The notes: generated from the letters alone by a model not told the origin. Shown: positions 31,878-57,857, numbered from the stretch's first letter. The stretch: 64,000 bases of DNA from Methanomethylovorans hollandica DSM 15978 (GCF_000328665.1 NC_019977.1:310001-374000), one strand, 5' to 3'. Translations and numbers: made by a program.

Positions 31878-31974
31878 CCCAATCTAATTATAATAGAAGT
31901 AATATAAACAGTCTAAATTTGTTACTCCTCATTGGTAGTTGCAGTAAGCAACATATGCTACTGTGAAAAGCAGT

Positions 31975-32289: not shown

Positions 32290-32314
32290 GAAACTCCTCC
32301 TGGTTTTATTGTCA

Positions 32315-33433: not shown

Positions 33434-33574
33434 AAAAATTCTCCTCATGACTTTTGAAAAGTATCTGTTACTGTGATGGACGCAAGGCCTATAGTGTCTT
33501 TGCATACAAAAAGTTCGGTGCTTTTTGTTTTAAGGTAATCTTCCAATTAATTAAAATACTCTTTTTTGAACCTT

Positions 33575-38666: not shown

Positions 38667-39470
38667 TTATTGTATTGGGTTTGGGTATTTCTCTACTTTA
38701 TATAACATTTCTTTAAAGTACAAAAAGAGATCCATGCCCCATATACGTGCACTTTCATTAAAAGAGATCACCTTTTTGTGATCAAACATCCCCTGTTTAT
38801 TGAAAAAAGCTATATTCACAAGGTCATCAGTAATTGAAAGAGCACCTAATTTTATTATATCATCATCGCATATGAACAGATTTGAATTCTTAGATGTCAT
38901 CATTGCATTATATTGTTCAGTATATTCTTCTTTCAATCTGTCATAAACAGACTTGGTCAGAATCATCTCAAAATTTACTTCTTTTTTAGCTAGCTTCGAG
39001 TAATTATTTGGGCATGAAGGACAAAAATATGAATATAATGTAGATACATTTTTTGTTTTTTCAAGGCTCAATAACAATTCCTTGGGTGGCTCAAAGAGAT
39101 GGCTAAGATCCGGGTCATGTATAATTACCTTACCTACTTCTCCAATTCTGTCCAGCAATGAATCTGGCACTGAGCTTAAATCTCTGTTCACCCAATAATT
39201 CTTATTCTCTTCCAGTACATCCAGTGTACTGATCAATGGATGTATTTTTTTCATCAGGATCTGGCCAACATAAGTTAATTTGTATTTACCATCATTCTGT
39301 TCAATGAGGCCATGTTCAAAAAGTATTTTTATCTGGGCCATTATTGCACTGGTCGTACCTGTCAGAGATTCTTTTATTTCTTCGATAGTAGCTGGCCCAT
39401 TAATTAATATCAGAAGAGTGTTTTTCCTCTTTTCAGATAGAAATACAGTGCTTACCAATTCGTCTTTCAT
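38667..39470 (-). CDS. Msr-type methyltransferase-specific transcription regulator (HTH + DUF1724)
   Basis: This 267-residue protein has an N-terminal winged helix (residues about 8-70; GPATIEEIKESLTGTTSAIMAQIKILFEHGLIE) and a C-terminal DUF1724-type domain (about 135-260) with SYFCPSCPNNYSK and DDIIKLGALSITDDLVNIAFFNK. Proteins of this kind (MsrA to MsrG in Methanosarcina) control substrate-specific methyltransferase operons. It is paralogous to the gene at 55.2 kb over its full length. The next gene on this strand is ramA, 770 bases downstream. It is likely to act on nearby one-carbon genes. Confidence 0.87.
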   Translation of the reverse strand: MKDELVSTVFLSEKRKNTLLILINGPATIEEIKESLTGTTSAIMAQIKILFEHGLIEQNDGKYKLTYVGQILMKKIHPLISTLDVLEENKNYWVNRDLSSVPDSLLDRIGEVGKVIIHDPDLSHLFEPPKELLLSLEKTKNVSTLYSYFCPSCPNNYSKLAKKEVNFEMILTKSVYDRLKEEYTEQYNAMMTSKNSNLFICDDDIIKLGALSITDDLVNIAFFNKQGMFDHKKVISFNESARIWGMDLFLYFKEMLYKVEKYPNPIQ

Positions 39471-39720: not shown

Positions 39721-40107
39721 CTACCTGCCAGGTCCCTCTCCAAATGTGTTATTATACCTCTTTACTACTGATCCTATATAGCTGGACACATTTCGTGAAG
39801 ATGTTTTAGACATATAATTCTTAAGAGGGAATTCGGTGTGGCAGTATGTACATCTGGCAAGTTCACAGCCCCGTGCAAGACTTGGGCAGTCTGTGCAATA
39901 TTTTGCTCTTGAATAAAAAAGATTGAAGGAATTCCCACACTCTGGACAAAGAAGCATTCTGTTAGAGTCATAGAACTGCTTGCTAACACCTCTTCTTTGT
40001 AGTTCATCAGAATACCTGTTATCGCGGGATAAATCATCAACATATCTATTTTCTTTTTGGCGCACTTTTCTACACCTCATTACAACTACATTTTTACTAT
40101 CATTCAA
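39721..40107 (-). CDS. Zinc-ribbon hypothetical protein
   Basis: This 128-residue basic protein has Cys pairs LLCPECGNSF, YCTDCPSL and a CELARCTYCHTEF motif (residues about 54-95), which suggests two small zinc ribbons. Both ends are basic and low in hydrophobics, so nucleic-acid binding is plausible but not shown. The start could be one of several codons near 40107. It is divergent from msrA. Confidence 0.6.
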   Translation of the reverse strand: MNDSKNVVVMRCRKVRQKENRYVDDLSRDNRYSDELQRRGVSKQFYDSNRMLLCPECGNSFNLFYSRAKYCTDCPSLARGCELARCTYCHTEFPLKNYMSKTSSRNVSSYIGSVVKRYNNTFGEGPGR

Positions 40108-40798: not shown

Positions 40799-40858
40799 TT
40801 AATCTTTTACCAATGGGAACATTGAATATCAAATGATTACAGGGGGTTAGTGGTAAAT

Positions 40859-43027
40859 ATGCCCTTTGAAAAACTATTCGAACCTGACAATATAGGGAAA
40901 TGCAAGTTGATGAACAGGATTGTCATGGCTCCTATAGGTAATATCAATATGGCCGATCCCATAGGCCGTCCTCTGGATAAAATGATAGAATATTTTATCG
41001 AGCGGGCAAAAGGCGGAGCAGGCCTTTTAATAACGGGTCTTGTGCCCGTTTCTTTTGGGATTGATCCCACAGTATCTGAAGATAATCATACTACTTATTT
41101 ACCACGCATCGATGGTACTTCACGTACCCGTCTTTCAGGTTGGAGGGATCTTACCGCCGGAGTACATCCTTACGGGTCAAAGATCTTCATCCAGCTTAGT
41201 GCAGGCCTTGGGAGGGTCGGTTCTCCTGAGCCGGCGCTAAAGGGAAAGATTCTCAGATCATCTTCATGGAACCGGAACTTCTATGTACCTCAGATCCCTC
41301 ATGCTCCATTTTCTGACAGAAGCATCAAAAAGATTGTAAGAAGCTTTGGTCAATGTGCAGCTAACGCAAAATCTGCAGGCTTTGATGGCGTGCAGATACA
41401 CGGCCACGAAGGGTACCTAATGGATCAGCTGACCTCTTACCCATGGAACCGGAGAATATTTGGTCGGTATAAAGATAAGAATCAGTTTGGGATAGATGTT
41501 GTAAAGGAGATCAAAAAGCGCTGTGGAGATGATTTTCCAGTCCTTTATAGGATAGATCTGACCCAGGCTTTGCAGGAAACATATGGGGATGCGATATTCA
41601 GGAAACTTTTCCATGGTAAGGAAAGGACAATTGAGCAGGGTCTTGAATTTTGCAGGGTTCTTTATGAAGCCGGAGTTGACGCATTCGATGTGGATAAGGG
41701 CTGTTATGATAACTGGTTCTGGCCACATCCTCCTGCTTACTTTGATGATGCGATCTATGTTAAAGAGATGGCAGGCTTCTTAAAGGATTTCTTCCGCAGG
41801 GAAGACATTAATGCAAAAGTGATAGCTGTCGGAAAGATGGGTAAACCGGAGTGTGCCGAAGAAGTATTGGAAAAAGGCTGGGCAGATTTTGTAATGCTGG
41901 GCAGGCCACTACTGGCTGACCCCCACTGGCCTGCAAAGGTCAGGCAGGGCAGAACAAAGGAGATCATTCATTGTATTGGTGATCAGGAAGGATGCCTCGA
42001 ATCAATTAAAAAAGGAGGGCATCCCTGCTGTGCAGTGAATCCTTACACAGGCTTCGAGGAAAAGAAAAAACTGGTGAGAGCGGAAAAGATCAAGAAAGTC
42101 GCTGTCATAGGTGCCGGACCCGCAGGCTGTGAAGCTGCAATGACAGCTTTCAAAAGAGGACATGAAGTGACGCTTTTTGAAAAGAGTGGCAAAATAGGCG
42201 GACAGTTATACACAGCCAGCCAGCTTGCAATTAAGCACGATATTAAAAGGTATCTTGAAAACCTTGAATATCAAATGAGCTTATTGCAAAAAGAGGGTCT
42301 GAAAGTTGTGTTTAACACATATGTCAGGCCTGAAAACATAGGAAGCATGTTCGATGTGATAATATGCTGCACTGGACTCAGAAAAGTTATCCCTTCCATC
42401 GAAGGGCTGGATATGATCAGGAATCTGGAAGCCAGGGAGTTTCTTGATAAGGGCATGGAATTGCCTTCTGATGTGCATAACGTCCTTATTATCGGAGGGG
42501 GGATAATCGGCTGTGAGGTGGCCTATTCCCTTGCCTATGAAAAAGGTGTCAATGTCACTATAGTGGGAAAAAATGATGCATTGATGCCTGATACCGTAAT
42601 GGCTAACAGAGGTCAGATGTTGTGGATGATGTTTGGAGGAGGTTCTCCTTCAGGAAAGAAGGAAGACGCTCTTAAAGAGCCGATTACAGTATATAACGCT
42701 TCAAATGTCATCAGGTTCACAGAAAGCAAGGTTCATATTCTGGCAAATAGGGGCAGAGGCGATCCTTACACACCATGGAAGGCACTGATTCCTTCAAATG
42801 TTAAAAATCCATTCAACAGAAAACTTGATCCAGATAATGTAGAGGAATTAACTCTGGATACAGACATGGTAATAATAGCAACCGGAGCACAAGCCGATGA
42901 TTCGCTTTACTATAGGCTTCTACAAGAGAAGGCAGCAGATGAAATATACTCCGCAGGAGATGCAAAAGAGCCTGGCAGGGTATGGGAGGCCATCACGGGA
43001 GCTAACGAGATTGCAAGGAATATATGA
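40859..43027 (+). CDS. Old-yellow-enzyme/iron-sulfur flavoprotein oxidoreductase with altered cluster motif
   Basis: This 722-residue protein has the layout of 2,4-dienoyl-CoA reductase and trimethylamine dehydrogenase: an FMN TIM barrel (1-360; IHGHEGYLMDQL, FVMLGRPLLADP), a [4Fe-4S] motif, and a FAD/NAD fold (VAVIGAGPAGCEAA and VLIIGGGIIGCEVA). The cluster motif should read C-x2-C-x3-C-x11-C; here it is Cys372, Asp375, Cys379, Cys391, so one Cys ligand is Asp. An extra Cys390 adjoins. Substrate is unknown, but its place beside methylamine-type genes suggests oxidation or reduction of a methylated or unsaturated compound. ATG 40859 is chosen; GTG 40850 is very close to the GGGGG box. Confidence 0.9.
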   Translation: MPFEKLFEPDNIGKCKLMNRIVMAPIGNINMADPIGRPLDKMIEYFIERAKGGAGLLITGLVPVSFGIDPTVSEDNHTTYLPRIDGTSRTRLSGWRDLTAGVHPYGSKIFIQLSAGLGRVGSPEPALKGKILRSSSWNRNFYVPQIPHAPFSDRSIKKIVRSFGQCAANAKSAGFDGVQIHGHEGYLMDQLTSYPWNRRIFGRYKDKNQFGIDVVKEIKKRCGDDFPVLYRIDLTQALQETYGDAIFRKLFHGKERTIEQGLEFCRVLYEAGVDAFDVDKGCYDNWFWPHPPAYFDDAIYVKEMAGFLKDFFRREDINAKVIAVGKMGKPECAEEVLEKGWADFVMLGRPLLADPHWPAKVRQGRTKEIIHCIGDQEGCLESIKKGGHPCCAVNPYTGFEEKKKLVRAEKIKKVAVIGAGPAGCEAAMTAFKRGHEVTLFEKSGKIGGQLYTASQLAIKHDIKRYLENLEYQMSLLQKEGLKVVFNTYVRPENIGSMFDVIICCTGLRKVIPSIEGLDMIRNLEAREFLDKGMELPSDVHNVLIIGGGIIGCEVAYSLAYEKGVNVTIVGKNDALMPDTVMANRGQMLWMMFGGGSPSGKKEDALKEPITVYNASNVIRFTESKVHILANRGRGDPYTPWKALIPSNVKNPFNRKLDPDNVEELTLDTDMVIIATGAQADDSLYYRLLQEKAADEIYSAGDAKEPGRVWEAITGANEIARNI

Positions 43028-43444
43028 AATAGCTATCAGAAAGCGTGAGATACTTTATTTGGACCCCAATTTTCTCCTTTTTATTGCTTTTGCCCAAAAT
43101 ACCATCTGTTTTTTGTGCCCGTTATATTCATGTTTTTGATTTTATCAACTGCATTGTTTTGCATTCAGCCTAGATTTTTTGACGCCCAATGGTTTCAGAA
43201 TATACACCCATAAAAATTCACAATTTCAATGAGGAATTCAGTATTGATAATAATGATATCATTGGCTGATAACCATGAGTTATTATATATACGTATACCA
43301 GAATATGTGTTTTGTTGATAAGTGGCTTGCCATTTTATTGACCTGAAATATGCTTGTCAGATATATGGCCAAAAGCGGAGAAAGTGAAGAAGCCAACATG
43401 CTTCGCATTAATGGCCATTATTAAATGGAATATGGAGGCATTCT
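43028..43444. other. Long leader region of the corrinoid protein gene
   Basis: A TATA-like TTATTATATATACG at 43280-43293 would start transcription near 43312 and give a leader of about 130 bases. No other gene is visible. The final bases contain GGAGG, 6 bases before ATG 43445. Confidence 0.55.
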
Positions 43445-44110
43445 ATGGAAGAAAGTGAAATACTCAACGGATTAACGGATGCGGTAGTCAATGGGAAGAA
43501 GGATCTGGCTGTCGAGCTGGCAAACCAGGCACTTGCAGCAGGCATTCCTCCTTACAAGGCAATCATCGAAGGCCTTGCAGCAGGCATGGAGATCATGGGA
43601 AAGAAGTACGACTGTAAACAGGCATTTATACCACACCTCCTGATGGCATCCAATGCAATGTATGGTGGAATGGATGTACTTACTCCTCATATGAAAGCTG
43701 AAGATGACTCAAAGAGAGCAGTCCTTGTAATCGGTTCTGCAGAAGGGGATGTACATGACATCGGCAAGAACCTTGTTAAGACCATGATGAGTGCAATGGG
43801 CTTTGAAGCGATCGACCTGGGCAAGGATGTTCCAATTGGTAAATTTGCTGAAGCTGCAATCGAGCACAAGGCAGATGTCGTATCTATAAGCACACTAATG
43901 ACCTCCACAATGGATAATATGGAGAAAACAGTAAAGAGCTTCTCAGAGAAGGGCATCAGGGACAAGGTCAAGATCATTGTTGGCGGAGCACCTATAACAG
44001 CTGACTATGCAGCAGAGATTGGAGCAGATGCATCCAAGAAGGATGCAATGGAAGCTGCAAAGTGGGCCAAGGAAGCCTTACAAGGCCTTCCTGACAACAG
44101 GTGGAACTAA
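43445..44110 (+). CDS. Methylamine-type corrinoid protein
   Basis: This 221-residue protein carries the methyl group on cobalt between a substrate methyltransferase and MtbA. It has the N-terminal helical cap (residues 1-90) and the B12-binding Rossmann domain with GDVHDIGKNLV, where His104 is the lower cobalt ligand, then TLMTSTMDNM and IVGGAPIT. It fits the MtmC/MtbC/MttC group. The substrate-specific partner gene is not adjacent, so the substrate is unknown. The next gene is MtbA, after a hairpin terminator. Confidence 0.9.
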   Translation: MEESEILNGLTDAVVNGKKDLAVELANQALAAGIPPYKAIIEGLAAGMEIMGKKYDCKQAFIPHLLMASNAMYGGMDVLTPHMKAEDDSKRAVLVIGSAEGDVHDIGKNLVKTMMSAMGFEAIDLGKDVPIGKFAEAAIEHKADVVSISTLMTSTMDNMEKTVKSFSEKGIRDKVKIIVGGAPITADYAAEIGADASKKDAMEAAKWAKEALQGLPDNRWN

Positions 44111-44332: not shown

Positions 44333-45349
44333 ATGGTAACATACACGCCAAAAGAGAGATTGGCACGCGCACTTACAGGAAAACCTGTTGACAGGATGCC
44401 AGCAATCTCTGTCACACAGACCGGAACTGTAGAACAGATGGAAGCAGTTGGGGCATTCTGGCCAGAAGCCAACGATAATGCAGAAGTCATGGCAAAGTTA
44501 GCAGAAGCAGGTCACACAATAATCGGTTTCGAAGCTGTACGTGTCCCCTTCGACATCAGCGCAGAAGCTGAGTTCTTCGGCTGCGGCATCAAACCAGGTA
44601 CAAAAGAACAACAGCCATCCGTGACTAGCCATTGCGTAAAGGACATGTCAGATATCGAGAGGCTTAAGGACTTCGACATCAATCGGGGCAGAGTAGCTAC
44701 TATCTGTAAAGCGATCAAGATCCTCGCAGATAAATATGGCACAAAAATACCTGTCATGGCAAGTATGCTCGGCCCATTCTCCCTTGCACAGCACATGAAC
44801 GGTGATGACTGGTTCATGGCAATCATGACAGATGAGGATTTTGCAACGGCACTAATGAACCTTGCAACAGAGTTTAACATCACATATGCAAAGAAGATGG
44901 TAGAGAACGGTGCAGACACAATGGTCATCATCGACCCCACAGCAAGTGCAATGCTCATTGGTGATGCATATTATGAAAAATATGTAGTTCCTGCGCACAA
45001 GAGGATAGTCGATGCAATGCACGAATTGAACGTACCGGTAGTACTCCATATATGTGGTGACACTACGATGAGTATCGAGCTCATGGAGTCATCAGGTGTC
45101 GATGGCATCAGTATAGACCAAAGCGTAGATGTTGCGACCGCAAAGAGCAAGGTCAAAAAGGCAGTTATAGTTGGTAACCTGGACCCTGTGAATGTGCTCT
45201 GGAACAAGACACCTGAGTTCATCAAAGAGAAGTCAAAGGAAGTCCTTGATGCAGGAGTCTCATTGCTCGCGCCAGGTTGTGGTATTGTCAGCAAGACGCC
45301 AAATGCCAACCTGCAGACAATGGTGGAGATGGCAAGGAATCATAAATAA
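44333..45349 (+). CDS. mtbA: Methylcobamide:CoM methyltransferase MtbA
   Basis: MtbA moves the methyl group from a methylated corrinoid protein to coenzyme M. The 338-residue UroD-fold protein starts [19 protein letters not shown], has the Zn-site HICGDT (His and Cys near residues 240-242), and a late Cys in [10 protein letters not shown]. Length and motifs match the methylamine-pathway enzyme. GGAG lies 10 bases before ATG 44333. It follows the corrinoid gene by 222 bases. Confidence 0.93.
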
Positions 45350-45582: not shown

Positions 45583-46434
45583 ATGTTATCGAAAGTGATA
45601 AGACAAATACCACAAAAAAAAGAAATAATTAATTCAAATATGCCACTTTTTCATTCCTTAAGCATATTTCTAGAAAAGAAAAGCCATTTACTTCTTAACA
45701 ATGTGTGGTACTTTGCTGTATTCATGCTCACAGTTATAGTTGGTATTCTGTTATTCTACAGACACACAGAGAATGAGATCATACCTGCTTTCATACTTGG
45801 GGCCCTATGGTTACTTTTCTGGAACAACAGCATGCTTAAAGGACGTATGCTCCTGGTGATAGCCTCGGTTTTCGGGTACGTTCATGAGCTATTGGGTGTT
45901 CAGCATGGCTATTTTACGTATCTTGGCGGAGCTATAGGTGGTGCTCCTATATGGCTCATCCCGGGTTACGGCGCAATATTCTGGTCATCCTACAATCTTT
46001 GGAAGATATTCCAGGAAAGATACTCTCAAAAGACATGGTTCCACAGGGTCAACTACTTCATATTTGGAACTGTTGCTTTACTGATACTTACAGACTACAT
46101 TATGTTCGATCTGTCTGCACAAACAGTTGGAATATTGCTTAAACTATTCCTTGCACTAATGCTGTTTATTAACCTTGAAGGCATCAGGCTTGCGTATTTC
46201 ACAGGTTTCTTCACTGTTCTTACAGAATTTACAGGGGAGATGCTTGGAACATGGAGTCACCCGGATTTCTCATTGATCTCCCTGATGGCAGGATATGTGT
46301 TCCTTCTATGGATTTGTATTACGCTAAGTGATATTATTAAAAGAAGAAAGGAATGGGGAAAAATTGAAGGCATGTCGGCTTTTGCTCTTACATCCTTCTA
46401 CATATTGTTATTACTTGGAATAGTAGCTGTCTGA
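45583..46434 (+). CDS. Integral membrane protein with seven or eight helices, unknown function
   Basis: This 283-residue protein is nearly all membrane helices from about residue 40, with conserved-looking polar segments HELLGVQHGYFTYLGGAIGGAPIWLIPGYG and FTEFTGEMLGTWSHPDFSL between them. I do not recognise the family; the Glu/His pairs inside helices suggest a membrane enzyme, perhaps acting on lipids. An in-frame Met is at residue 20. It is followed after 41 bases by an aldehyde dehydrogenase and then an SDR, all on the plus strand. Confidence 0.7.
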   Translation: MLSKVIRQIPQKKEIINSNMPLFHSLSIFLEKKSHLLLNNVWYFAVFMLTVIVGILLFYRHTENEIIPAFILGALWLLFWNNSMLKGRMLLVIASVFGYVHELLGVQHGYFTYLGGAIGGAPIWLIPGYGAIFWSSYNLWKIFQERYSQKTWFHRVNYFIFGTVALLILTDYIMFDLSAQTVGILLKLFLALMLFINLEGIRLAYFTGFFTVLTEFTGEMLGTWSHPDFSLISLMAGYVFLLWICITLSDIIKRRKEWGKIEGMSAFALTSFYILLLLGIVAV

Positions 46435-46475: not shown

Positions 46476-47885
46476 ATGCATCATGAGATCAAACGAGTGT
46501 TCTGCCTTCAGCAGGAAAAGTGGCCACAACTGGCACGTCTGGGAGTCTCCGAGAGAATCGAGAGATTGATGCGTATTGACAAATATCTCCGGGATGAAAG
46601 GCATCTTCTTGAATTGTACCAGGCAATGTTCATGGATCTGCATAAACCCGAAGTAGAAGTAATTGCTACAGAAGTGGGTATAGTTCAGGCTCAGATATCT
46701 TACATAAAAAAACATCTGAGCAATTGGATGCGACCACGTAAGGTGCCCACACCCCTGCCTCTTATCGGTACACGCTCTTTTACCCGGTATGAACCCAAGG
46801 GAGTGATACTCATCATGTCTCCCTGGAACTTCCCCCTTAATCTTTCCCTGGTGCCCCTTGTCTATGCGATAGCTGCCGGTAACGCGGTCATACTCAAGCC
46901 CAGCGAAATCTCATCCCATACCTCTGCATTTATAAAGCATATGATGGACGAGCTCTTCCCTGAGAGCGAAGTTATGGTTTTCGAAGGCGATGCTTCTGTT
47001 GCCAGTTCACTTCTTGAGCAGCCATTCAACCACATATTTTTCACGGGCAGTCCCAGGGTCGGAAAACTCGTCATGACAGCAGCTGCCAAGCACTTGTCCG
47101 GAGTTACTCTGGAGCTGGGGGGAAAATCACCTGCTATTATAGATGAGACCGCTGATATCAGCCTTATAGCTAGACGTGTTGCCTGGGCCAAGTGTGTCAA
47201 CAACGGACAGACCTGTATAACTCCCGATTATTTACTTCTCCATGAATCAGTGTGTGATTCTTTCATCCATGAATTCGGTGCTGCTGTTAAGCAGTTATAC
47301 GATCCTGAAGGTGAGGGAATAAAAAATTCTCCAGATTATTGTCGCATTATCAACGGTATGCACTTTAGACGGCTGAGATCCATTTATGATGATGCTATCT
47401 CTAAAGGTGCATGTTTATCCCTGGGAGGGGATTTCGATGAATCTGACCGTTTTATCTCTCCCACCCTGCTGGAAGGGGTAACTTGTGACATGAACATTAT
47501 GAATGAAGAAATTTTTGGCCCCCTATTGCCGATAATTACCTACAGGAACAGGAAGGAAGCCAAAGATATGATACGTCGCCTTCCAAACCCACTGACATTG
47601 TATATCGCCAGCCGGGACCAGGCTAATATAGACTATTTTATGGACGGTATATCTGCCGGAGGTACTGTGATCAATGACTACATGCTTGGTTACAGTAATC
47701 CGTCCTTGCCATTTGGGGGAATTAATAACAGTGGTATAGGCAGGTCATTAGGATTGCACTGCTTTGCAGGCTTTTCCAATGAGCGTAGCATCATACACCG
47801 CAGATGGGGCTCACTGAACATTATCTATCCACCATACAATGAGCGGGTCCTGAGATTGATCAACACACTTTACCGATGGATGTGA
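46476..47885 (+). CDS. Aldehyde dehydrogenase, class 3-like
   Basis: This 469-residue enzyme should oxidise an aldehyde with NAD(P). It shows the nucleotide loop SPWNFPLNLSL, Lys/Glu positions ILKPSE and FFTGSPRVGK, the general base in LELGGKSPAI, and the catalytic Cys in NNGQTCITPDY. The form is that of fatty-aldehyde/coniferyl-type dehydrogenases, and the C-terminus ends without a clear membrane anchor. It lies between a membrane protein and an SDR, which suggests a pathway for a hydrophobic alcohol or aldehyde. Confidence 0.88.
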   Translation: MHHEIKRVFCLQQEKWPQLARLGVSERIERLMRIDKYLRDERHLLELYQAMFMDLHKPEVEVIATEVGIVQAQISYIKKHLSNWMRPRKVPTPLPLIGTRSFTRYEPKGVILIMSPWNFPLNLSLVPLVYAIAAGNAVILKPSEISSHTSAFIKHMMDELFPESEVMVFEGDASVASSLLEQPFNHIFFTGSPRVGKLVMTAAAKHLSGVTLELGGKSPAIIDETADISLIARRVAWAKCVNNGQTCITPDYLLLHESVCDSFIHEFGAAVKQLYDPEGEGIKNSPDYCRIINGMHFRRLRSIYDDAISKGACLSLGGDFDESDRFISPTLLEGVTCDMNIMNEEIFGPLLPIITYRNRKEAKDMIRRLPNPLTLYIASRDQANIDYFMDGISAGGTVINDYMLGYSNPSLPFGGINNSGIGRSLGLHCFAGFSNERSIIHRRWGSLNIIYPPYNERVLRLINTLYRWM

Positions 47886-47907: not shown

Positions 47908-48711
47908 ATGAAAGATAACAGAAAGACGATGCTGATAACTGGCGGCTCCGGCGGAATTGGAATTGAGCTTGGAAAAATTTTTGCATCCGCTGGCTATCAC
48001 CTGGTGTTGGTAGCTCTGCCTGGCGATGACATGCAACAAGCAAAGAACATACTTCAGGATCTCAATCCATTTATTAATATACTTTTGCTGAAAAAGGATC
48101 TTTCCATTCACGGAGCAGCTACGGAGGTTTATGAGTTCACCCAAAGCCATAAACTAACAGTGAATGTATTGGTCAACTGTGCCGGATTTGGCACTTACGG
48201 TCATGTCAATGAAATATGCATTGACAGAGAACTCGCGATGATACAGCTCAATACCAGTACTCTCTACCACCTTACAAGACTTTATCTGCGGGATATGATC
48301 GAAAGGGATGAGGGTCAGATCATTAATATGTCCTCTATCTCAGCTTTTCAGCCCAATCCATCTTTTGCAACCTACGGCGCCTGTAAGAGCTTTGTGCTGA
48401 ACTTCAGTAGGGCCTTAAATTATGAATTACATGAGCGTGGGTCTAGGGTAAGAGTTTTGGCCGTTTGCCCTACTGCTGTCAAAGACACAGGTTTCCAGGT
48501 AACAGCCGGAATGGAGCATGCCAGAGCATTCAGTTCTTTTATGGCTACGACATCTGCAACTGTAGCCCGTGATACATACGAAGCTATGAAGCAAGGCAGG
48601 GATGTGGTAATCCCCGGAAGAGGACTTGGTTTTGGACATGCCCTGGTAAACCTCCTTCCTGCAAGCTGGAAGATGCGCATTTCTAAATATCAGTTGCAAG
48701 AGACCTTGTAG
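47908..48711 (+). CDS. Short-chain dehydrogenase/reductase
   Basis: This 267-residue SDR has the coenzyme motif TGGSGGIG, the NCAGFG structural motif, Ser in MSSISAF and the catalytic Y-x3-K in YGACKSF. It is 22 bases after the ALDH gene with GGAG upstream, so both belong to one operon. The C-terminal region (LGFGHALVNLLPASWKMRI) resembles SDRs that act on lipid-like substrates. Exact substrate unknown. Confidence 0.9.
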   Translation: MKDNRKTMLITGGSGGIGIELGKIFASAGYHLVLVALPGDDMQQAKNILQDLNPFINILLLKKDLSIHGAATEVYEFTQSHKLTVNVLVNCAGFGTYGHVNEICIDRELAMIQLNTSTLYHLTRLYLRDMIERDEGQIINMSSISAFQPNPSFATYGACKSFVLNFSRALNYELHERGSRVRVLAVCPTAVKDTGFQVTAGMEHARAFSSFMATTSATVARDTYEAMKQGRDVVIPGRGLGFGHALVNLLPASWKMRISKYQLQETL

Positions 48712-48756: not shown

Positions 48757-49479
48757 ATGATCATCATTGATGCTTCGTGCAATGAGAAAAGCAATTGTAT
48801 GCTATGCGGAAACGGGATAGTTCATTCATGTCGGGCAATTACTGCAAAATGCCACTACTGTGGCGTTGAAGAGGAAGCTTATATCCAATGTAAGGACGGA
48901 CATTATGTTTGCAATAACTGTCATTCACAGGATGCATTAAAAGTAATTGAGAACATCTGTTTGAACACCGACCTGCAGAATCCTGTTATTCTGGCTGAAA
49001 GGATCATGGAACATCCAAGTGTACATATGCATGGTCCTGAGCATCATGCACTGGTGCCTGCAGTACTTATAGCTGCTTACCAGAACTATACCGGAAAAAG
49101 GAAAGAAGAAGATATTTCAGAGGCTATTAAAAGAGGTAGCAAGGTCCCGGGAGGTTACTGCGGTATCTATGGTGCCTGCGGCGCAGGAATCGGGGTAGGT
49201 GTTGCTGTAAGTATCCTTTTAGGAGCTACACCCTTCACATCTTCCGAACGCTCCCAAGCAAACCGGGCAACATCTGGTGCTCTTCGATGCATTGCAGATG
49301 CAGGGGGAGTAAGATGCTGTAAAAAAGCAACTCGCATTTCTCTGAGGAAAGGAGTGGCATATCTGTCAGATGTTTTCGGCCTGATCTGGTATCAAAAACT
49401 CGACATGGGAATGAATTGTACTTATACAGATTTGAATAGGGAATGTGATGAGAATTGTGAATACAGGAACAAATCCTAA
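48757..49479 (+). CDS. DUF5714-like Cys-rich protein
   Basis: This 240-residue protein has many Cys: an N-terminal ribbon CMLCGNGIVHSC, CHYCG, then C-x-DGHYVCNNC, and a central GGYCGIYGACGAGIG, a variant of the C-GCAxxG motif, then CCKKA and a C-terminal CDENC. I recall such proteins beside the radical SAM/ligase cluster found convergently here, but the link is from memory. The gene is 46 bases after the SDR gene, and it may be co-transcribed with it. Confidence 0.72.
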   Translation: MIIIDASCNEKSNCMLCGNGIVHSCRAITAKCHYCGVEEEAYIQCKDGHYVCNNCHSQDALKVIENICLNTDLQNPVILAERIMEHPSVHMHGPEHHALVPAVLIAAYQNYTGKRKEEDISEAIKRGSKVPGGYCGIYGACGAGIGVGVAVSILLGATPFTSSERSQANRATSGALRCIADAGGVRCCKKATRISLRKGVAYLSDVFGLIWYQKLDMGMNCTYTDLNRECDENCEYRNKS

Positions 49480-49679
49480 ATGTGTAAAAGCTAGACCGAG
49501 CAGTGATCACTGGTCAAAGCATCAATCTGCCGAGTATGCGGGCTTTTTTCCCGGGACAGAAGCACGTATATCCCTCCCAGTTTGGGTCAGCAGGTAAATC
49601 CCATAAAATTATGTTGTCCGCAAAGATTAGACTTCTTTTTCTATACTTTTCAGTTTTTTATGTAGGATGTAATATTACT

Positions 49680-50372
49680 TCAGTCATTTTTCCGGAGAGC
49701 TACCCGGTAGAGCCTTTTTGGAAGAAGGCCTTCTTCGAATTCAGTAATATCTTCAGTTATGTACCCTTCGGAAATAAAGGCAATTTTTTCCCGGCTCAGG
49801 AAGTGTACTATAAATCCGCCCTGTATCTCCCACATATCCTCACTTATGTGGATGCCTGTTCGGTATTGAGGGTCCTGTGTATGTCTTGTGGTAAATACGT
49901 TCAGTCCCCCTGGCCTAAGGACTCTCTTGATTTCCGATGATAGTGCTCGGAGTTCTGAAATCTTCAAAGGCATGCAGTAAAGCATGTGGGAAAAGCATGC
50001 ATCAAATGTTGCATCCTCAAAAGGAAGCCTTTTCCTTACATCGTGTACTAAAGTTTTTATGGAGCCACGTAAGTGCTCGTTAACAGCTCTGGCTTTTATA
50101 TATTCGACTCCTTTTTCGCAGTAGTCCAGAGCAAATACCTCAAAACCATTTCTCGCAAAATAGAAAGTGTCCCTTCCCTGGCCAGCCCCGAGCTCAAGAA
50201 TCTTTATTTTGCCTTCATCCTTAAAAAGCTGGGCAGCCCACTGAGCCGGGCTGCTTGGTTCTTCGCCGAACATGGATTCATTGCATGAGAAAACACTCTC
50301 CCAGTGTTGCTGCTGCCTGTTAAGGTCCTTTTTGTCTACACCAGGTTCATTATGGTTCATTTTGTCATCCAT
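49680..50372 (-). CDS. Class I SAM-dependent methyltransferase in the radical SAM cluster
   Basis: This methyltransferase has SAM motif ILELGAGQGRDTFYF, VFALDYCEKGVEYI, and HDVRKRLPFEDATFDACFSHMLYC, RVLRPGGLNVFTTRHT. Its substrate is unknown. The start is uncertain: ATG 50372 (AAGGG one base before it) or ATG 50360, preceded by GGATGA at good spacing. It is the last gene of the leftward run redox protein, radical SAM enzyme, ligase, methyltransferase and may be the methyl donor enzyme of that set. Confidence 0.8.
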   Translation of the reverse strand: MDDKMNHNEPGVDKKDLNRQQQHWESVFSCNESMFGEEPSSPAQWAAQLFKDEGKIKILELGAGQGRDTFYFARNGFEVFALDYCEKGVEYIKARAVNEHLRGSIKTLVHDVRKRLPFEDATFDACFSHMLYCMPLKISELRALSSEIKRVLRPGGLNVFTTRHTQDPQYRTGIHISEDMWEIQGGFIVHFLSREKIAFISEGYITEDITEFEEGLLPKRLYRVALRKND

Positions 50373-50402
50373 GCCCTTTAATGCACACACTATTTCAATT
50401 TT

Positions 50403-51539
50403 TCAGGAAGTCATTCTCTTTATGTCACTTATGCGCTGATCAAGACAGGCACCACAAGTACATGGCTCTTCAATGAGAGTTGTTATATCCCTTGTCCTGT
50501 AACGGATGAGGGGCATACATCTTCTCCTGAGGGTCGTGACAACAAGCTCTCCTTCCTCTCCTGGGAGCAACTGCTTTCCGGTTTTCGGGTCTATTATCTC
50601 CACCAGAAAATCAGGATTATTCAGATGGAAGCCATTCTGCTCTACACATTCGATGGCATTGGCCAGTCCCAGTTCGGTCATACCCCATTGTCTGAGGGTC
50701 TTGCATCCCCATACTTCCTCAATTTCTTTTCTCATGGAAGGTGTAAGGGGTTCGGATGAGCAGATGATACGCTTGATCCCAAGCTCACCTGGCTGTATAA
50801 GTTCACGGGCAGCCTTAGATAATTCGTACAAAAAGGAAGAAGTTCCTATAATAATAGTCGTGCCAGATTCTCTCATGGTCTTTATCTGTTCATCTGCATC
50901 AAGAGAATCATTGATAACAGAATTGTAGCCTGAGAGAGCGCAAGCCTTGCTCAGTACCAAACCAGGATCCCAGGTAGCTGTTATAGTTGGATACATTATC
51001 TGTAATGTATCATCCTTTGCATCCATTCCTGCCATCTTAAGACCAGATATCACCGAATCCACGATTTCCAGCAGCTCATGCTGGGTGTAAGCCATCCTCT
51101 TAAGCATGTTTGTGGTGCCGGAGCTTGTAAACTCCCTCACGATCTCCCTCCTTGATACACAAAGGAAATGATATGGATGATCAGCCAGTTGCTTCTGTTC
51201 GGTAAGTGGTAGATTCTTCAGATCTTCATACTTTGTGATCTGAGATGGGTTTATGCCAGTCTTTTCATACAGCTCCTTATAATAGGGGCTATTTTCCATG
51301 ACATACCCCATAAGTTCTCTGAACCTGAATAGTTTGTACTCATTGATGAGTTCCCTGTCAAGCTCCTGATTACCGAATAACTCTTTCAGTTCCTTGCTGT
51401 TCTTTATATCATTCCTGATCTTGGCCAGTCCCCATTGCTCCAAGGGATTCCCGGCACCACTTTCTATTTTACGGGACTCCAGTCTTCTCTTTGCTATATT
51501 CATTCTAACAGCAGTATTAATTTTTGCAGAAAGACTCAT
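50403..51539 (-). CDS. PaaK-like AMP-dependent ligase (DVU_1553-like)
   Basis: This 378-residue protein belongs to the phenylacetate-CoA-ligase-like adenylating enzymes: FTSSGTTNMLKRMAYT (phosphate loop), CSSEPLTPSMRKEIEEVWG, QWGMTELGLANAIEC, and YRTRDIT. It stops soon after LIRYRTRDITTLIEEPCTCGACLDQR, so it is shorter than ordinary PaaK by most of the C-terminal lid. This shorter form matches, from memory, the DVU_1553 group. It activates an unknown carboxylate. The gene is 12 bases after the methyltransferase start downstream of it on the strand. Confidence 0.82.
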   Translation of the reverse strand: MSLSAKINTAVRMNIAKRRLESRKIESGAGNPLEQWGLAKIRNDIKNSKELKELFGNQELDRELINEYKLFRFRELMGYVMENSPYYKELYEKTGINPSQITKYEDLKNLPLTEQKQLADHPYHFLCVSRREIVREFTSSGTTNMLKRMAYTQHELLEIVDSVISGLKMAGMDAKDDTLQIMYPTITATWDPGLVLSKACALSGYNSVINDSLDADEQIKTMRESGTTIIIGTSSFLYELSKAARELIQPGELGIKRIICSSEPLTPSMRKEIEEVWGCKTLRQWGMTELGLANAIECVEQNGFHLNNPDFLVEIIDPKTGKQLLPGEEGELVVTTLRRRCMPLIRYRTRDITTLIEEPCTCGACLDQRISDIKRMTS

Positions 51540-51575
51540 ATCACTATTCCTGTTCTAATCATGAATGAAATGAAT

Positions 51576-53018
51576 TTAAGCGGTGTTCCTGTAAAGGAAG
51601 TTTCCATTGCAGTCAGTCATGTTATAATTACAGAAGGGGACAAATCTTCCGTCGCGTGTGACCACATGTATGCAGCAGTTCTCTACCCTTTCTCTCTCGT
51701 ATGACCAGACGTCCTGGAAAGCCATTGTTGAGATTGTAAGATAGCTGTTCATGCTTTTCTCTATGAAATCTGCCCATCCGCCACCCAGGCGGGTATTCTT
51801 CGGAAGGACTTCAGTTATTGGTTTTTCACAGCATGAACCCTTTACAGTAAGCTGGCTTATCGGCTTCTCGCAGCAAGAACTCTTGATAAGGAGATCGCCA
51901 CACGATGACTTCTGGTCTTCTTTCCCGGAACCTTTCCACCTGCCCATAATGGACTTCTTCGTTTTGCTCGCTACATCGGAAGCAGACTTGATGGCTCCAA
52001 GCGAGACATTGGTCAGTGGAAGGAAACCTCCGTTATCTATAAGCGTCAGGCAGGTAGCCCCGCAATGGGCATGGGGCATGAGTGAAGGTGTGAAATTCTC
52101 AACCTTGAGCTGTCCGCTGGTCTGCTTCTCTATTTCCCTAAGTAGCTCCAGTATGGTTATCCTCCCTTCGCGGGCCGAAGGAGCACGGCCGGAATAGAAT
52201 ACAGGCTGGAAGTGCACTCCCCTAACAGTGGGTACCCTGCTGCCTGCAAACTCTATGATCTTGCCGACTTGGTGCAGGTTATAGTTTCTGGCTACCAATG
52301 GTACAAGGACAACACCGATTCCTGCCTTTTCACATCTGTTTATGACCTCGGCCTTGAAATCAAAGAGCTTCTTTCCAGTCCTTTGCTTGTAAATATCATC
52401 GGATACACCGTCGAATCCAAGGTAGATAGCATCTACACCCGCTGAGGCGATCCTGTTAAAATAATCCTGATCAGTAGCTATTCTGCGACCATTGGTGTTC
52501 AATTCTATGTGATCGATTCCTACTTCCTTTCCCATCTTTATTATCTCAGGCAGATCATCCCTCATGGTGGGCTCTCCTCCTGAGATTTGTATACAGGTGG
52601 GTTTGTTCTGACATTTTTTCACAGTCTCGAACATGAATCTTATTGTTTCTATATCGGGGTCGAGGCTTTTGTCAATAGAAGAGCTGGCGAAACAATAAGT
52701 ACATCCCATATCACACCTGTCGGTCACTTCGACAATTGCCAGACAGGTATCTTGTTTGTGAGAGGGACAGAGGCCGCAGTCGAAGGGACAGCCTTTTTCT
52801 GTATCCCTAAGGGATGCTTTGGCACGCGATCTATTGACATCGAAACATTCCTCCATTTGGAGGTAGTGCCCTACATCCTCAGATATCATGGTTGTAAAGC
52901 TGCCATGGTCAGGGCATGTTTTTTTGAGGTAAACTTTTCCCTCCTCCACGTATTTGATGCCATCTATTTTGCCAAGGCACTCAGGACAAAGGCTTTCAAC
53001 TGTACTTATCGGTTCCAT
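51576..53018 (-). CDS. Radical SAM protein with SCC repeats (TrsS-like)
   Basis: This 480-residue radical SAM enzyme begins with SLCPECLGK and TCPDHG, then GCPFDCGLCPSHKQDTC and the radical SAM Cys motif CDMGCTYC. Later comes QISGGEPTMR and the iron-sulfur/ SPASM-like region. At about residues 375-415 it has repeats SSCGDLLIK, SSCCEKPISQLTVK, GSCCEKPITEV, then C-terminal CCIHVV and CNYNMTDC. The repeats fit the TrsS family, where Sec may replace a Cys in bacteria. Substrate unknown. The N-terminal half also resembles MJ0619/tetraether-type enzymes, which is the main alternative. Confidence 0.82.
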   Translation of the reverse strand: MEPISTVESLCPECLGKIDGIKYVEEGKVYLKKTCPDHGSFTTMISEDVGHYLQMEECFDVNRSRAKASLRDTEKGCPFDCGLCPSHKQDTCLAIVEVTDRCDMGCTYCFASSSIDKSLDPDIETIRFMFETVKKCQNKPTCIQISGGEPTMRDDLPEIIKMGKEVGIDHIELNTNGRRIATDQDYFNRIASAGVDAIYLGFDGVSDDIYKQRTGKKLFDFKAEVINRCEKAGIGVVLVPLVARNYNLHQVGKIIEFAGSRVPTVRGVHFQPVFYSGRAPSAREGRITILELLREIEKQTSGQLKVENFTPSLMPHAHCGATCLTLIDNGGFLPLTNVSLGAIKSASDVASKTKKSIMGRWKGSGKEDQKSSCGDLLIKSSCCEKPISQLTVKGSCCEKPITEVLPKNTRLGGGWADFIEKSMNSYLTISTMAFQDVWSYERERVENCCIHVVTRDGRFVPFCNYNMTDCNGNFLYRNTA

Positions 53019-53082
53019 CTGTTCCCTCTCTGGTTGGTGTGGTGGTAATCTACCTGAGAACCCCTTGAATTCTCAGGTATTC

Positions 53083-53544
53083 TTAAGCTCTCTTTTCTTC
53101 AAGGATCGCTTCCGCAGTTTTTAGCGTTGACTTTGCCATGCCGGCTGATACATACATATCGCCGCATTTTGCACAGACAAGTCCGGGACCTGGCCTTGTG
53201 ACCCCCATATAGCTCATGTCAACGTTCCTCTCCAGTGCGACCTCATTGCACTTTGCACATATCCACTCACTTTCATCATCGTATTCCACTGGCTTGATCT
53301 CTCCGCCGGTTATACCGAGGATGTTCATCTTGTGGGTGTAGACATCAAGCAGTTCAGTTGCAGAATAGACGGCATAGATGGTCAGATTCTCTGATACGCC
53401 TTTTGCAATACAGGTGCTGCCATCCTTTGCTATGAGTTTGTGCCCACTGGACTCTGCATTCTTGATAATTTCCAGTATCTCCTCTTTTTTCACGCCGTTG
53501 TCTTTGAGTAAATTGTCCGCTTGTTCAGTTATCTTTATATCCAT
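53083..53544 (-). CDS. DVU_1557-like redox/rubredoxin-type protein
   Basis: This 153-residue protein has an N-terminal alpha/beta domain (MDIKITEQADNLLKDNG; then CIAKGVSENLTIYAVY) and a C-terminal rubredoxin-like ribbon CAKCNE ... CAKCGD. It matches my recollection of the DVU_1557 family. It may carry electrons or bind Zn. ATG 53544 is chosen because GAGGG lies 5 bases upstream; the ORF from 53556 is less likely. It lies between the methyltransferase-type gene at 53.6 kb and the radical SAM gene on the same strand. Confidence 0.78.
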   Translation of the reverse strand: MDIKITEQADNLLKDNGVKKEEILEIIKNAESSGHKLIAKDGSTCIAKGVSENLTIYAVYSATELLDVYTHKMNILGITGGEIKPVEYDDESEWICAKCNEVALERNVDMSYMGVTRPGPGLVCAKCGDMYVSAGMAKSTLKTAEAILEEKRA

Positions 53545-53587
53545 AATAACCCTCACTGATTTATACTATTATTTTTCATCCCTTTTC

Positions 53588-54703
53588 TCAGAACTTTTCA
53601 TACTTACCAAAATCCTTTGCAGCTCTTACAAGTGCATGGACATTAACAGGTGGGGCATTGGTCGGACATTCACATGCTGTTCCTAATATGAATCCTCTCG
53701 GACTGTCCTTGCCGGCAAGTACCTGTTCCTTGGCCTGTGCGTAGACCTGAGCAGGTGTACCGCGGTCAATGAGTTTTGTATCAACAGTTCCGAAGCATGT
53801 GCACCTGTCTCCGAAATTCTCTACAAGTTTTGAAGTGGGGAATATGTCCTGTCCGTCGTATCCTATCTGAACAATAGTGAACGGGCTCATTGGTGCATCT
53901 CTCCACAGGTCGAAGTCGTCGGTGTGGTTTCCACATAGATGGTAATAGACACCAGGGCCTGCACCTGTGTTCAGGACTTTCCTGACAGCTCTTGATACTG
54001 GCTGGTAGCTGAACCTCTTGATCTGTTCCCTGTCCATGAGGTCACCACTTGCTATTACTGAACCAGTGATCATCACGTTTGCACCATACCTCTCGGCTGT
54101 TGCTTTACATGCGTTTACCATGTGGTCTCCGGCTTTTATGCAAAGCTTGTCCACAAGTTCTGGCTCTGTGATCATCCACATGAATACATCCTCAATGGCA
54201 GCCCAGTTAGTAGCCACTTCCATGGTACCACCCAGCTGGGTGATTGGGGCAAACATCTGTGGGTATTCGTTCTTTACTGTGTCCAATGCTCTGTAGTGTG
54301 TAGTGAGGGTCGGCCCCTTCACCAGTTCTTCAGTGCTTAGTACTTCAAAATTATCTACATCTTCCGCAGTCTTTATTGGGCGTTTTGTAATACCTGGAGG
54401 AGCATTTGTCTGGATCTTTAGCTCAGCTCCGTAGTCGGCTCCCCAGTAATCTGCATAAAGGAAGTGCCCAACCGGAGTAACATCATAAAGCTCACAGGCA
54501 GCACACACCATCCTTACTGCTTCTTCCGGATTCGAATAGAAGTATCCTGCATTCTTTCTGAACAGAGTAGCTGCGTGAGACAGAATAATAGGGTCTACTA
54601 TAACTCTATCCGATGGTTTGTCTACCCATGGTGTGGTCCATAAGTTTCCTGCATTTTCTAGCCAATTTTGATCTATTGGGATATAGTCTTGTGCTGGCAT
54701 CAT
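53588..54703 (-). CDS. UroD-family methyltransferase beside the radical SAM cluster
   Basis: This 371-residue TIM-barrel protein has the H-x-C motif HLCGNHTDD and a late Cys in [14 protein letters not shown], which are the Zn ligands of MtaA/MtbA-type methyltransferases. The N-terminal part ([21 protein letters not shown]) differs from MtbA. It is the first gene of the leftward set with the redox protein, radical SAM enzyme, ligase and methyltransferase; GGTGAT precedes ATG 54703 or ATG 54700. Its corrinoid partner is unclear. Confidence 0.85.
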
Positions 54704-55159
54704 TTATCACCAATCGTTTGTTGTTCTGGTTACGAATGGTGAAAATAGTAAACCTTTTCCATTCATAACCATCAATTTGAAATCAAATCTTTTTGCAGTC
54801 TATCATGCAAATTCAGTTTTTGTCACTATTGACAACAAACGTTATTTTGGTGTAGACATATATGTAATAACTCCTAGTAATTAATCAAAACAATTATTAT
54901 TATCAATAGTATGTTCGCGGTTTAAATTATGGATTTTCCCGGAAGTATATTTTTTATCTAAGTAGTTCAGGAAAACGGTAGCTAGAAAAAAATAGACACC
55001 TTCGATAATATCAAGACTGTGAATATTAACAAAAGTAAATTTAAAAGTAAGTTCTAGAACAGGCATCTATAGCTGTTGATCAAAAATATTGCATGGAATT
55101 GTGGCAGAAAGATCTATTGATGAAGAAGTAGAATTTTTAAAATCAATGATGATCCAGTT
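54704..55159. other. Intergenic region before the radical SAM operon
   Basis: A TATA-like TTACATATATG on the minus strand near 54862 would give a leader of about 130 bases for the UroD-family gene. No reading frame in the rest has support. Confidence 0.5.
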
Positions 55160-55942
55160 TTACTTAACCTTCTCTGACATTTCTTTATATTGTTCAAACA
55201 GGTCTTTTCCCCATTTACGGGCACTATCTTCGAAACTAATTACTTTTTTGTGATCAAATATTCCTTTTTTATTAAAAAAAGCTATCAGCATAAGATTGTC
55301 CGTAATTGAAAGAGCACCCAGTTTAATTATATTATCATCACATACGAACAAATTCGAATTTGCAGACCTCATCATTGCATTATATTGTTCTGCATACTCA
55401 TCTCTCAATCGTTCATATACCGATTGAGTTAAAATGAGATCAAATTTAACTTCTTTATTTGCAAGTTCTGAATAATTATTAGGGCAAGATGGGCAAAAAT
55501 ATGAATAAAAAGTACACGCATTTTTTGTTTCTTTTAAACTGGTCAGTAGTTCTTTTGGTGGTTCGAAAAGATGATTTAGATCCGGTTCATACACCATTAC
55601 CTTTCCTAAATCTCCAATTCTATCCAGTAATAAGTCAGGGATACCACTCAGATCTCTGGTTCCCCAGAATTCTTTGTTTTCTTCCAGTATATTAAGTGCC
55701 TCAATCAAAGGTTTTACTTTTTTAAGTATGATCCTTCCAACAAAAGTTAACCCGTATTTATCTTCTTTTTGTTCTATAAGACCCTCTTCGATAAGGATTT
55801 TTATCTGAGCCATTATAGCACTAGTTGTTCCGGTTAAAGAATCTTTTATCTCATCAACAGTAGCCGGTCCTTCCAATAACATAAGAAGGGCCATCTTTCT
55901 TTTTTCAGATAAAAACACCGTACTCATCAATTCAGTTTTCAT
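55160..55942 (-). CDS. Msr-type transcription regulator, second copy
   Basis: This 260-residue HTH plus DUF1724 regulator is a paralogue of the one at 38.7 kb, aligning from MSTVFLSEKRK to the end with the same SYFCPSCPNNYS signature. ATG 55942 matches the paralogue start; GTG 55951 is an alternative. It lies 456 bases upstream of the UroD-family methyltransferase gene on the same strand, which makes that operon a likely target. Paralogues often respond to different methyl substrates. Confidence 0.87.
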   Translation of the reverse strand: MKTELMSTVFLSEKRKMALLMLLEGPATVDEIKDSLTGTTSAIMAQIKILIEEGLIEQKEDKYGLTFVGRIILKKVKPLIEALNILEENKEFWGTRDLSGIPDLLLDRIGDLGKVMVYEPDLNHLFEPPKELLTSLKETKNACTFYSYFCPSCPNNYSELANKEVKFDLILTQSVYERLRDEYAEQYNAMMRSANSNLFVCDDNIIKLGALSITDNLMLIAFFNKKGIFDHKKVISFEDSARKWGKDLFEQYKEMSEKVK

Positions 55943-56420
55943 GGTCTTCACTTTTGTTATGAAATATTGTTAACTCTGTGTTCATTTCTATAATAACAGA
56001 TTATCAACATACTCCTCAATTCTCACCCACATATTTGCTTCAATGTGTTCCATGAGTGTATTTACATATGTGAAATCTAGGTTTTAACTCTTTTTATGCT
56101 CTGATAGTACTTGGTTGATCTCATTAAATCCTGTAAGTGGGTTTGATTTCCCTCACTTTCATTTTAGATCCTTAAAATATTAACATACAATCATTTAACT
56201 GCTATCTGTATATAATAGTTCTTATTTGAAAATCGAATTTAAATAAAGATCACTAAAAAAATCAATATCAATAGCCCAAAGTTGGCACTTATCTTCATAT
56301 ACATGAAATTAACATTATTGTTGTCCCAATAATTCAAAGCAGGTAAATAAGAGGTCTATGTGATTAAGACCGAATTTTACAATGTACTAGAAAACTCTTG
56401 GACAAAACTGGTGGTAAAAG
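55943..56420. other. Intergenic region between the Msr gene and nadC
   Basis: A 478-base AT-rich gap with divergent flanking genes. No protein gene or RNA was recognised; TA-rich elements near 56220 might be promoters. Confidence 0.5.
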
Positions 56421-57245: not shown

Positions 57246-57410
57246 TAATATTGATATTTGTGGAGGATATCGTTTCTTCAATAAATTTAGGAATTTACAA
57301 TACCCGGGATCATGAAATAGTATACATAATTACAGCATTAATTCTTCATTTCATATCTGGGACAGGTCTGATAGCAGAGTATTTGAGTGCAGAGATAGTT
57401 GAGTTCTTGC

Positions 57411-57857
57411 ATGGAGTATACTACAGGTACTATTGGCAGGGTCTTTTTCCTGCGTGTTGATCATGGTGAAGATCTGATCGAGGCATTGCAAACAGTTTCA
57501 CGAAAAGAGAAAATAAGATCTGCTTTTTTCTTTCTGCTGGGTGCAATTGAAAAGGGAGAGCTTGTTTCAGGTCCAAGGGATGCTTGCGTACCTCCTGTTC
57601 CCATGTGGGTCAAAATAGACACTCCTCATGAAATCATAGGCATAGGTAATGTTTTTTACGAAGGGGAGGATCCCAAGGTACATCTGCACTGCAGTATAGG
57701 CAGGGATGAAATCGTCAGGACCGGTTGCCTGAGGAATAATAGTAAAGCATTTATGGTAAATGAAGTCTTCCTTCTCGAAATATCAGGGATGGTCGCAACA
57801 AGGGTTAATGATAGTATAAAAGGTTACTCACCGGTGACATTTGGGGAAAACATTTAA
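57411..57857 (+). CDS. PPC-domain (DUF296) protein
   Basis: This 148-residue protein is a PPC/DUF296 fold: GRVFFLRVDHGEDLIEALQ, AFFFLLGAIEKGELV, and KVHLHCSIGRDE with the metal-ligand-like His pair. In plants this domain links to AT-hook proteins; archaeal stand-alone forms have no settled role. ATG 57411 is preferred to a TTG upstream. It follows nadC at 166 bases. Confidence 0.82.
   Translation: MEYTTGTIGRVFFLRVDHGEDLIEALQTVSRKEKIRSAFFFLLGAIEKGELVSGPRDACVPPVPMWVKIDTPHEIIGIGNVFYEGEDPKVHLHCSIGRDEIVRTGCLRNNSKAFMVNEVFLLEISGMVATRVNDSIKGYSPVTFGENI

Follow-up and report, generated by a model that had tools for sequence, protein, structure and literature searches.

A candidate corrinoid methyltransfer island linking a UroD-family methyltransferase to a Tes-like radical SAM enzyme in Methanomethylovorans hollandica and other archaea

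A 64,000-nt stretch of the Methanomethylovorans hollandica DSM 15978 genome (GCF_000328665.1 NC_019977.1:310001-374000; hereafter the window, whose positions serve as coordinates throughout) carries a UroD-family methyltransferase gene (UroD) followed by genes for a DVU1557-like protein, a TrsS-type radical S-adenosylmethionine (SAM) enzyme, an adenylating ligase and a SAM methyltransferase, all five on the minus strand and facing a convergent DUF5714 gene. This six-gene layout, described in the initial annotation, was found as drawn there, and by comparison of genomes the module reaches left to ~36 kb, such that the annotated genes are half of it (Table 1). Sequence comparison places two gene blocks, UroD-DVU1557-TrsS-ligase and corrinoid protein-MtbA-membrane protein-aldehyde dehydrogenase (ALDH)-short-chain dehydrogenase (SDR)-DUF5714, under one predicted promoter element, accompanied by RamA, FilR1 regulators and a small eight-cysteine (8-Cys) protein. 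We judge the chances to be about even that the annotated genes are one half of an inducible corrinoid methyltransfer island. A more tentative proposal, which we hold with less than even confidence, is that a UroD-superfamily methyltransferase and a Tes-like radical SAM enzyme share one carboxylated, methylated substrate here, which would make the island a new form of corrinoid-dependent methylotrophy. No study of this gene cluster was found in the literature under its locus tags or gene names.

Alignment of the regions upstream of UroD operons identified a conserved palindrome, TTGATA-N-TATCAA, together with a TATA-like box. Only two sites in the window match the palindrome with at most one mismatch, at 43136 and 55002, being 303 nt before the corrinoid protein gene and 305 nt before UroD respectively. 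The palindrome precedes both genes in 11/11 island genomes (the window and ten others), at distances of 293-312 nt from UroD and 246-360 nt from the corrinoid gene, with some genomes having extra sites before RamA or between the genes for the 8-Cys protein and the Old-yellow-enzyme (OYE)-type flavoenzyme. The two promoters have further common blocks downstream (TTGATAATAAT, TTGATTAATTAC and AAGTTATTATATATA). When a matrix was derived from the corrinoid promoters of the other ten genomes, it ranked the window UroD promoter second at 32.9 bits (next 17.1), and the reverse test, from UroD promoters to the corrinoid promoter, gave 30.8 bits (next 14.7). Across the whole genome (2,428,904 + 285,109 bp) the pattern TTGATWWTATCRA has eight matches, and the six besides the two promoters all lie inside coding frames. 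The two operons, that of the radical SAM enzyme and that of the corrinoid protein, thus very probably form one regulon, with the UroD/TrsS block and the corrinoid methyl carrier apparently switched on together. From gene position FilR1 is presumably the regulator; the Msr-type regulator that the initial annotation placed at 55.2 kb does carry a FilR1 middle domain, and the FilR1 regulators would bind the palindrome. An Rfam scan of the island gave no match, and scans for bacterial sigma-70 promoters and terminators returned about chance level, these models being bacterial and wrong for archaea.

Island content was compared in ten further genomes from four other genera by reading 60 kb of each, a few members falling outside the 60 kb in single genomes. 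A PAS protein, RamA (mostly), FilR1, the 8-Cys protein, OYE and the corrinoid protein recur in shuffled blocks, along with the membrane protein, ALDH, SDR, usually DUF5714, the UroD operon and FilR1. The 8-Cys protein has eight invariant cysteines (7 to 8 by alignment column). MtbA is within the island in Methanolobus and the window and absent from it in Methanosalsum, Methanohalophilus and Methanococcoides. The three MtbA-type genes at 7.2, 41.9 and 354.3 kb of the genome match Metho_0007, Metho_0037 and Metho_0355 (PMC5748143); the proteome of cells fed tetramethylammonium showed Metho_0007 but not the island's own MtbA, Metho_0355 (PMC5748143), a weak sign that methylamines leave the island switched off. 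The proposal that the cluster serves a methyl-group pathway involving a corrinoid is now strong, given the promoter common to the corrinoid gene and the presence of RamA and MtbA in the island.

Among 120 related genomes, UroD and TrsS occur in an identical set of 13, all 107 genomes without TrsS also being without UroD (Fisher p about 1e-14 within the family, a statistic that ignores kinship among genomes, though the pattern crosses five genera). The pairing is not chance. The order and orientation of UroD-DVU1557-TrsS-ligase are kept in all uncut TrsS loci of Methanolobus, Methanococcoides, Methanohalophilus and Methanosalsum, and on this conservation the four genes are a real operon across five Methanosarcinaceae genera; the expectation that the cluster would stay together in related genomes was thus borne out. 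The five further genomes from the window's genus have neither UroD nor TrsS. UroD is the most conserved protein, with 75-90% identity among orthologues compared to 67-80% for TrsS. DUF5714 is present in 13/13 genomes with TrsS and in 4/60 other family members. For the 8-Cys protein the set consists, out of 120, of the 13 TrsS genomes and one further genome that is 72% complete. The SAM methyltransferase had been counted in the cluster core, a place it loses, being found only in the window genome and a few close loci. What follows the ligase varies: some genomes have a MIP channel there, others a second radical SAM protein together with an SsuA/NMT1-type ABC transporter. The latter pair, BioB/PylB-like and SaoX/SaoP-like respectively, lies after or beside the operon at loci L075-L079, L082, L084, L088 and L129. 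On a contig of Methanococcoides seepicolus LLY (L055:3237-4364) the ligase gene is broken by an in-frame stop at a conserved Glu codon, either a pseudogene or a sequencing error; decoding as pyrrolysine or selenocysteine was ruled out since the codon reads TAA.

Most cluster proteins fall just under the curated equivalog cut-offs in profile scans, and the families named in the initial annotation (TrsS, DVU_1557, DVU_1553 and DUF5714) were right or near-threshold. UroD has the His-x-Cys...Cys zinc site of UroD-fold zinc thiol methyltransferases by alignment, with His255-x-Cys257 and Cys344 invariant in 39 archaeal sequences and aligning with the corresponding positions of MtaA (4ay7). Its AlphaFold model (pLDDT 82) best matches MtaA 4ay7/4ay8 (TM 0.73-0.81). 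Against the MtaA/MtbA/CmuA model TIGR01463, UroD scores 76 bits, under the cut-off of 235, compared to 398 bits for the island MtbA, and by model score it is a lineage of its own. The best reading of these features is that UroD would move a methyl group to or from a corrinoid protein. Substrate-side methyltransferases (MTI) of the UroD superfamily are established, among them MtvB, OdmB, MtoB, CdmB and CmuA (PMC13222342; PMC8630106). The MtoABCD, MtvABC, CdmBCA, CmuAB, Mts and MtaA/MtbA systems resemble the island in having a UroD-fold enzyme, a corrinoid protein, an activase and a coenzyme M-side methyltransferase (MTII) in one regulon. Unlike the island, they include no radical SAM enzyme or adenylating ligase as far as the available text of the sources describes them, and UroD is separate from their lineages by model score.

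TrsS in the window scores 484 bits with the TrsS model NF045646 (cut-off 490) and 382 bits with the Tes model NF045702 (cut-off 450, not reached). Orthologues of the same archaeal family score 464-493 bits, the one at 493 being a Methanosarcinaceae protein above the cut-off, and Tes-like proteins reach at most about 395, so that the two are separate groups. The neighbouring DVU_1553 ligase and DVU_1557 protein are those expected for the TrsS family, and the gene neighbourhood differs from that of Tes. TrsS nevertheless has the same length and domain order as Tes (GDGT-MAS, MJ0619; PDB 7tol), the tetraether lipid synthase, retaining its rubredoxin site, N-terminal cluster with His, radical SAM motif and C-terminal cluster. 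The ligands kept, in TrsS numbering, are C11, C14, C35 and H38; C77, C81, C84 and H87; and C102, C106 and C109. Probable ligands of the C-terminal cluster are C319, C448 and C463, with M432 in place of the labile Met439 of Tes. The metal ligands are conserved in 33/33 TrsS sequences, which predicts three Fe4S4 clusters and a rubredoxin-like site, while C92, invariant in all 33, is Ile in Tes 7tol. Tes-like chemistry on an unactivated C-H bond is the natural guess by analogy. No in-frame TGA (selenocysteine) codon was present in TrsS in the 32 loci checked.

The C-terminal lid domain of the ligase is present in bacteria and Methanomassiliicoccales, but the Methanosarcinaceae and Nitrososphaeria proteins end before it, making a classical coenzyme A (CoA)-ligase cycle doubtful there; formation of a CoA ester is not supported for the lidless Methanosarcinaceae form. 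The DVU1557-like protein is similar in its N-terminal part to the tail of the bacterial disulfide-oxidoreductase/dicluster protein, and its C-terminal part is DVU_1557/DUF7479 with a conserved end, KRA. The CX2C...CX2C cysteines are present in the window protein and most Methanosarcinaceae and lost in most Methanomassiliicoccales sequences, such that an electron-carrier role cannot be general and its annotation as a redox protein is doubtful. A Foldseek search with its model found nothing below E=0.3.

Beyond the family, UroD adjoins TrsS also in Methanomassiliicoccales, Nitrososphaeria and Hadarchaeota. How often the UroD-family gene recurs in the cluster across archaea, a question raised by the initial annotation, was counted in the 52 archaeal TrsS rows of a quick tree that also held bacterial TrsS: UroD is beside TrsS in 43 and has its end at a contig edge in 1 more, 7 rows are truncated at a contig end on the side where UroD would lie, and L126 has no UroD within 3 kb. 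In this tree, which has no Tes outgroup, archaeal TrsS forms one side of a fully supported branch (SH-aLRT 100) beside bacterial TrsS and spans Hadarchaeota, Nitrososphaerota, Methanomassiliicoccales and Methanosarcinaceae, so the UroD-TrsS pairing is old in archaea. In Methanomassiliicoccales, Nitrososphaeria and Hadarchaeota the gene for the 8-Cys protein lies immediately next to that for TrsS. In Methanomassiliicoccales (L095-L126) GGGP synthase, UbiA and RadA-like genes face the UroD-TrsS-ligase core convergently, and DUF169 and 8-Cys genes often lie between TrsS and the ligase. The bacterial DVU_1551-1557 cluster (NF045645, NF045646, NF045663-NF045669) likewise groups TrsS, the DVU_1553 ligase and the DVU_1557 domain, with C-GCAxxG-C-C and methyltransferase genes alongside and an aldehyde-oxidising enzyme nearby. 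Most of the bacterial TrsS loci read have the DVU_1553 ligase, with DVU_1555, DVU_1556 and DVU_1557 in varying number, and they variably carry the disulfide oxidoreductase/dicluster protein, XdhC and a MocA-like protein, a molybdenum aldehyde oxidoreductase being present in most. The archaeal clusters differ in having UroD and the 8-Cys protein and in lacking the molybdenum aldehyde oxidoreductase, XdhC and MocA-like protein, while the bacterial ligase keeps the lid that Methanosarcinaceae and Nitrososphaeria have lost.

Table 1. Genes and promoter elements of the island in window coordinates, with the profile scores or other evidence for each.
Feature	Position	Strand	Evidence
URO-D family methyltransferase	53588..54703	-	PF01208 125 bits (cut-off 23.9); Zn-type triad H255-x-C257 ... 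C344
DVU1557-like protein	53083..53556	-	NF045645 40 bits (cut-off 60); PF24292 66 bits (cut-off 27)
TrsS-type radical SAM enzyme, Tes-like	51576..53018	-	NF045646 484 bits, full length (cut-off 490); 7tol E=7e-100
DVU_1553-family adenylating enzyme (PaaK-like), without C-terminal lid domain	50403..51539	-	NF045666 272 bits (cut-off 300)
MduS-like SAM methyltransferase, accessory	49680..50390	-	NF045649 251 bits (cut-off 380)
DUF5714/MbdU-like protein	48757..49479	+	PF18978 207 bits (cut-off 26); weak C-GCAxxG-C-C similarity
SDR	47908..48711	+	Family scan; in island of 9/10 other genomes (in the tenth, beyond the stretch or other contigs not checked)
ALDH	46476..47885	+	Nearest model benzaldehyde dehydrogenase MdlD
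Conserved membrane protein	45583..46434	+	No family match
MtbA methylcobamide:coenzyme M methyltransferase	44333..45349	+	NF041608 628 bits (cut-off 600); probably Metho_0355, tag inferred from PMC5748143
Methyltransferase cognate corrinoid protein, MtbC/MtgC-like	43445..44110	+	TIGR02370 204 bits (cut-off 215); MtbC 184 bits (cut-off 350); in 10/10 islands
Promoter element of corrinoid gene	43126..43179	+	Palindrome 43136-43148 (TTGATTTTATCAA)
OYE/BaiCD-like flavoenzyme	40850..43027	+	Family scan and island comparison
Small 8-Cys Zn-ribbon-like protein, without family name	39721..40107	-	Gene neighbourhood and presence profile
Second FilR1-type regulator, paralogue of the 55160 regulator	38667..39470	-	Sequence similarity
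RamA corrinoid-protein reductive activase	36269..37894	-	TIGR04270 756 bits (cut-off 500)
Promoter element of UroD operon	54971..55024	-	Palindrome 55002-55014 (TTGATATTATCGA)
FilR1/Msr-type transcription regulator upstream of UroD operon	55160..55951	-	PF08350 FilR1 middle domain, 122 bits

Beyond the RamA block, the window holds at 31080-33505 a second URO-D methyltransferase (32315-33505) with DUF6951 and FGE-sulfatase-domain genes downstream, the latter recurring with the island in Methanolobus and Methanohalophilus. A PCC-domain (PF03479) protein is encoded near the island at 57399-57857, and several Methanomassiliicoccales (L103, L106, L110, L117, L118, L119 and L125) have a homologue a short distance upstream of UroD.

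Read as a corrinoid methyltransfer system, the island would work as follows. UroD would be the substrate-side methyltransferase, with a sulfur (or oxygen) methyl substrate bound at its Zn(His,Cys,Cys) site, and would methylate the Co(I) corrinoid protein, kept reduced by RamA; from there MtbA would transfer the methyl group to coenzyme M for methane. The rest of the substrate molecule would be a carboxylic acid or aldehyde oxidised by SDR and ALDH, its carboxylate being activated by the adenylating enzyme as acyl-AMP, probably not as a CoA ester in Methanosarcinaceae. TrsS would use a 5'-deoxyadenosyl radical to abstract hydrogen from an unactivated carbon, as Tes does, the carbon radical perhaps being caught on a cluster sulfur, with the DVU1557-like and 8-Cys proteins likely acting as docking or electron-transfer partners. 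Several observations weigh against this scheme. The nearest solved relative of UroD is an MTII rather than an MTI, and TrsS works without UroD in bacteria, no UroD being present in the bacterial loci read. In the loci read outside Methanosarcinaceae, a corrinoid protein lies beside the core only in L112, SDR is absent from the core and only two Nitrososphaeria have an ALDH nearby. Two Hadarchaea and one Nitrososphaeria with the core have no RamA over the cut-off, and mcrA was not found in Hadarchaea with the core. In favour of the scheme, RamA is over cut-off in 9/12 other archaeal genomes with TrsS tested, and mcrA is present in 6/10 core-bearing archaeal genomes outside the family. On the other side, no substrate is indicated, the downstream transporter being a MIP channel or an SsuA/NMT1-type ABC transporter depending on the genome.

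Part of this pattern would suit a biosynthetic role, which we regard as somewhat unlikely, in which the product of the core (UroD, DVU1557, TrsS, the 8-Cys protein and the ligase) is a modified lipid or a small cofactor: the ligase would activate an acid, TrsS would form a C-C or C-S bond like Tes, and UroD would methylate or demethylate the intermediate with the corrinoid protein as methyl donor. The closeness of TrsS to a lipid enzyme, the occurrence of the core in archaea without RamA or mcrA and the lack of methylotrophic genes in bacterial TrsS clusters are in keeping with it, as is the proximity of the Methanomassiliicoccales core to the archaeal lipid genes GGGP synthase and UbiA, although these are convergent and may be chance neighbours. 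However, the patchy, accessory distribution within genera and the inducible-type regulation with FilR1, RamA and MtbA suit catabolism better.

It is also conceivable, if improbable, that UroD is a second corrinoid:thiol methyltransferase (MTII or MtsA-like, acting on coenzyme M or another thiol), with the OYE-type flavoenzyme, DUF5714 or a protein encoded elsewhere on the substrate side and TrsS and the ligase building or repairing a partner of that true substrate-side enzyme. The invariant triad, the MtaA-like fold and the absence of the usual MTII, MtbA, from the islands of three genera would fit, but this genome has a dedicated MtbA in the island and UroD scores far below it against the MtaA/CmuA model. 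Demethylation or detoxification of an organoarsenic or other organometal compound seems very improbable: the island has no recognisable arsenic or mercury gene, and the adenylating ligase and Tes-like radical enzyme would have no evident role, despite the MIP channel after the operon in several genomes, the resemblance of flanking proteins to the selenoproteins MduS and MbdU and the demethylation of dimethylarsenate by Methanomassiliicoccus (PMC10579292).

Methanogenic substrates have so far been discovered one at a time. A further one is indicated by the island, whose dozen or so genes make up a regulon with its promoter element, all parts of a corrinoid system and a phylogenetic profile. The island brings together a methyltransferase of the cobalt-cofactor type and a lipid-synthase-like radical enzyme, a set not described together before and inherited as one block, and in doing so ties TrsS, a radical SAM family without assigned function, to a methyl pathway and gives context to two small proteins without known function. 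The idea is testable in culturable strains (M. hollandica, Methanolobus and Methanosalsum). If the proposed methylotrophy is true, obligately methylotrophic archaea would be able to use a compound outside the known range of methanogenic substrates.

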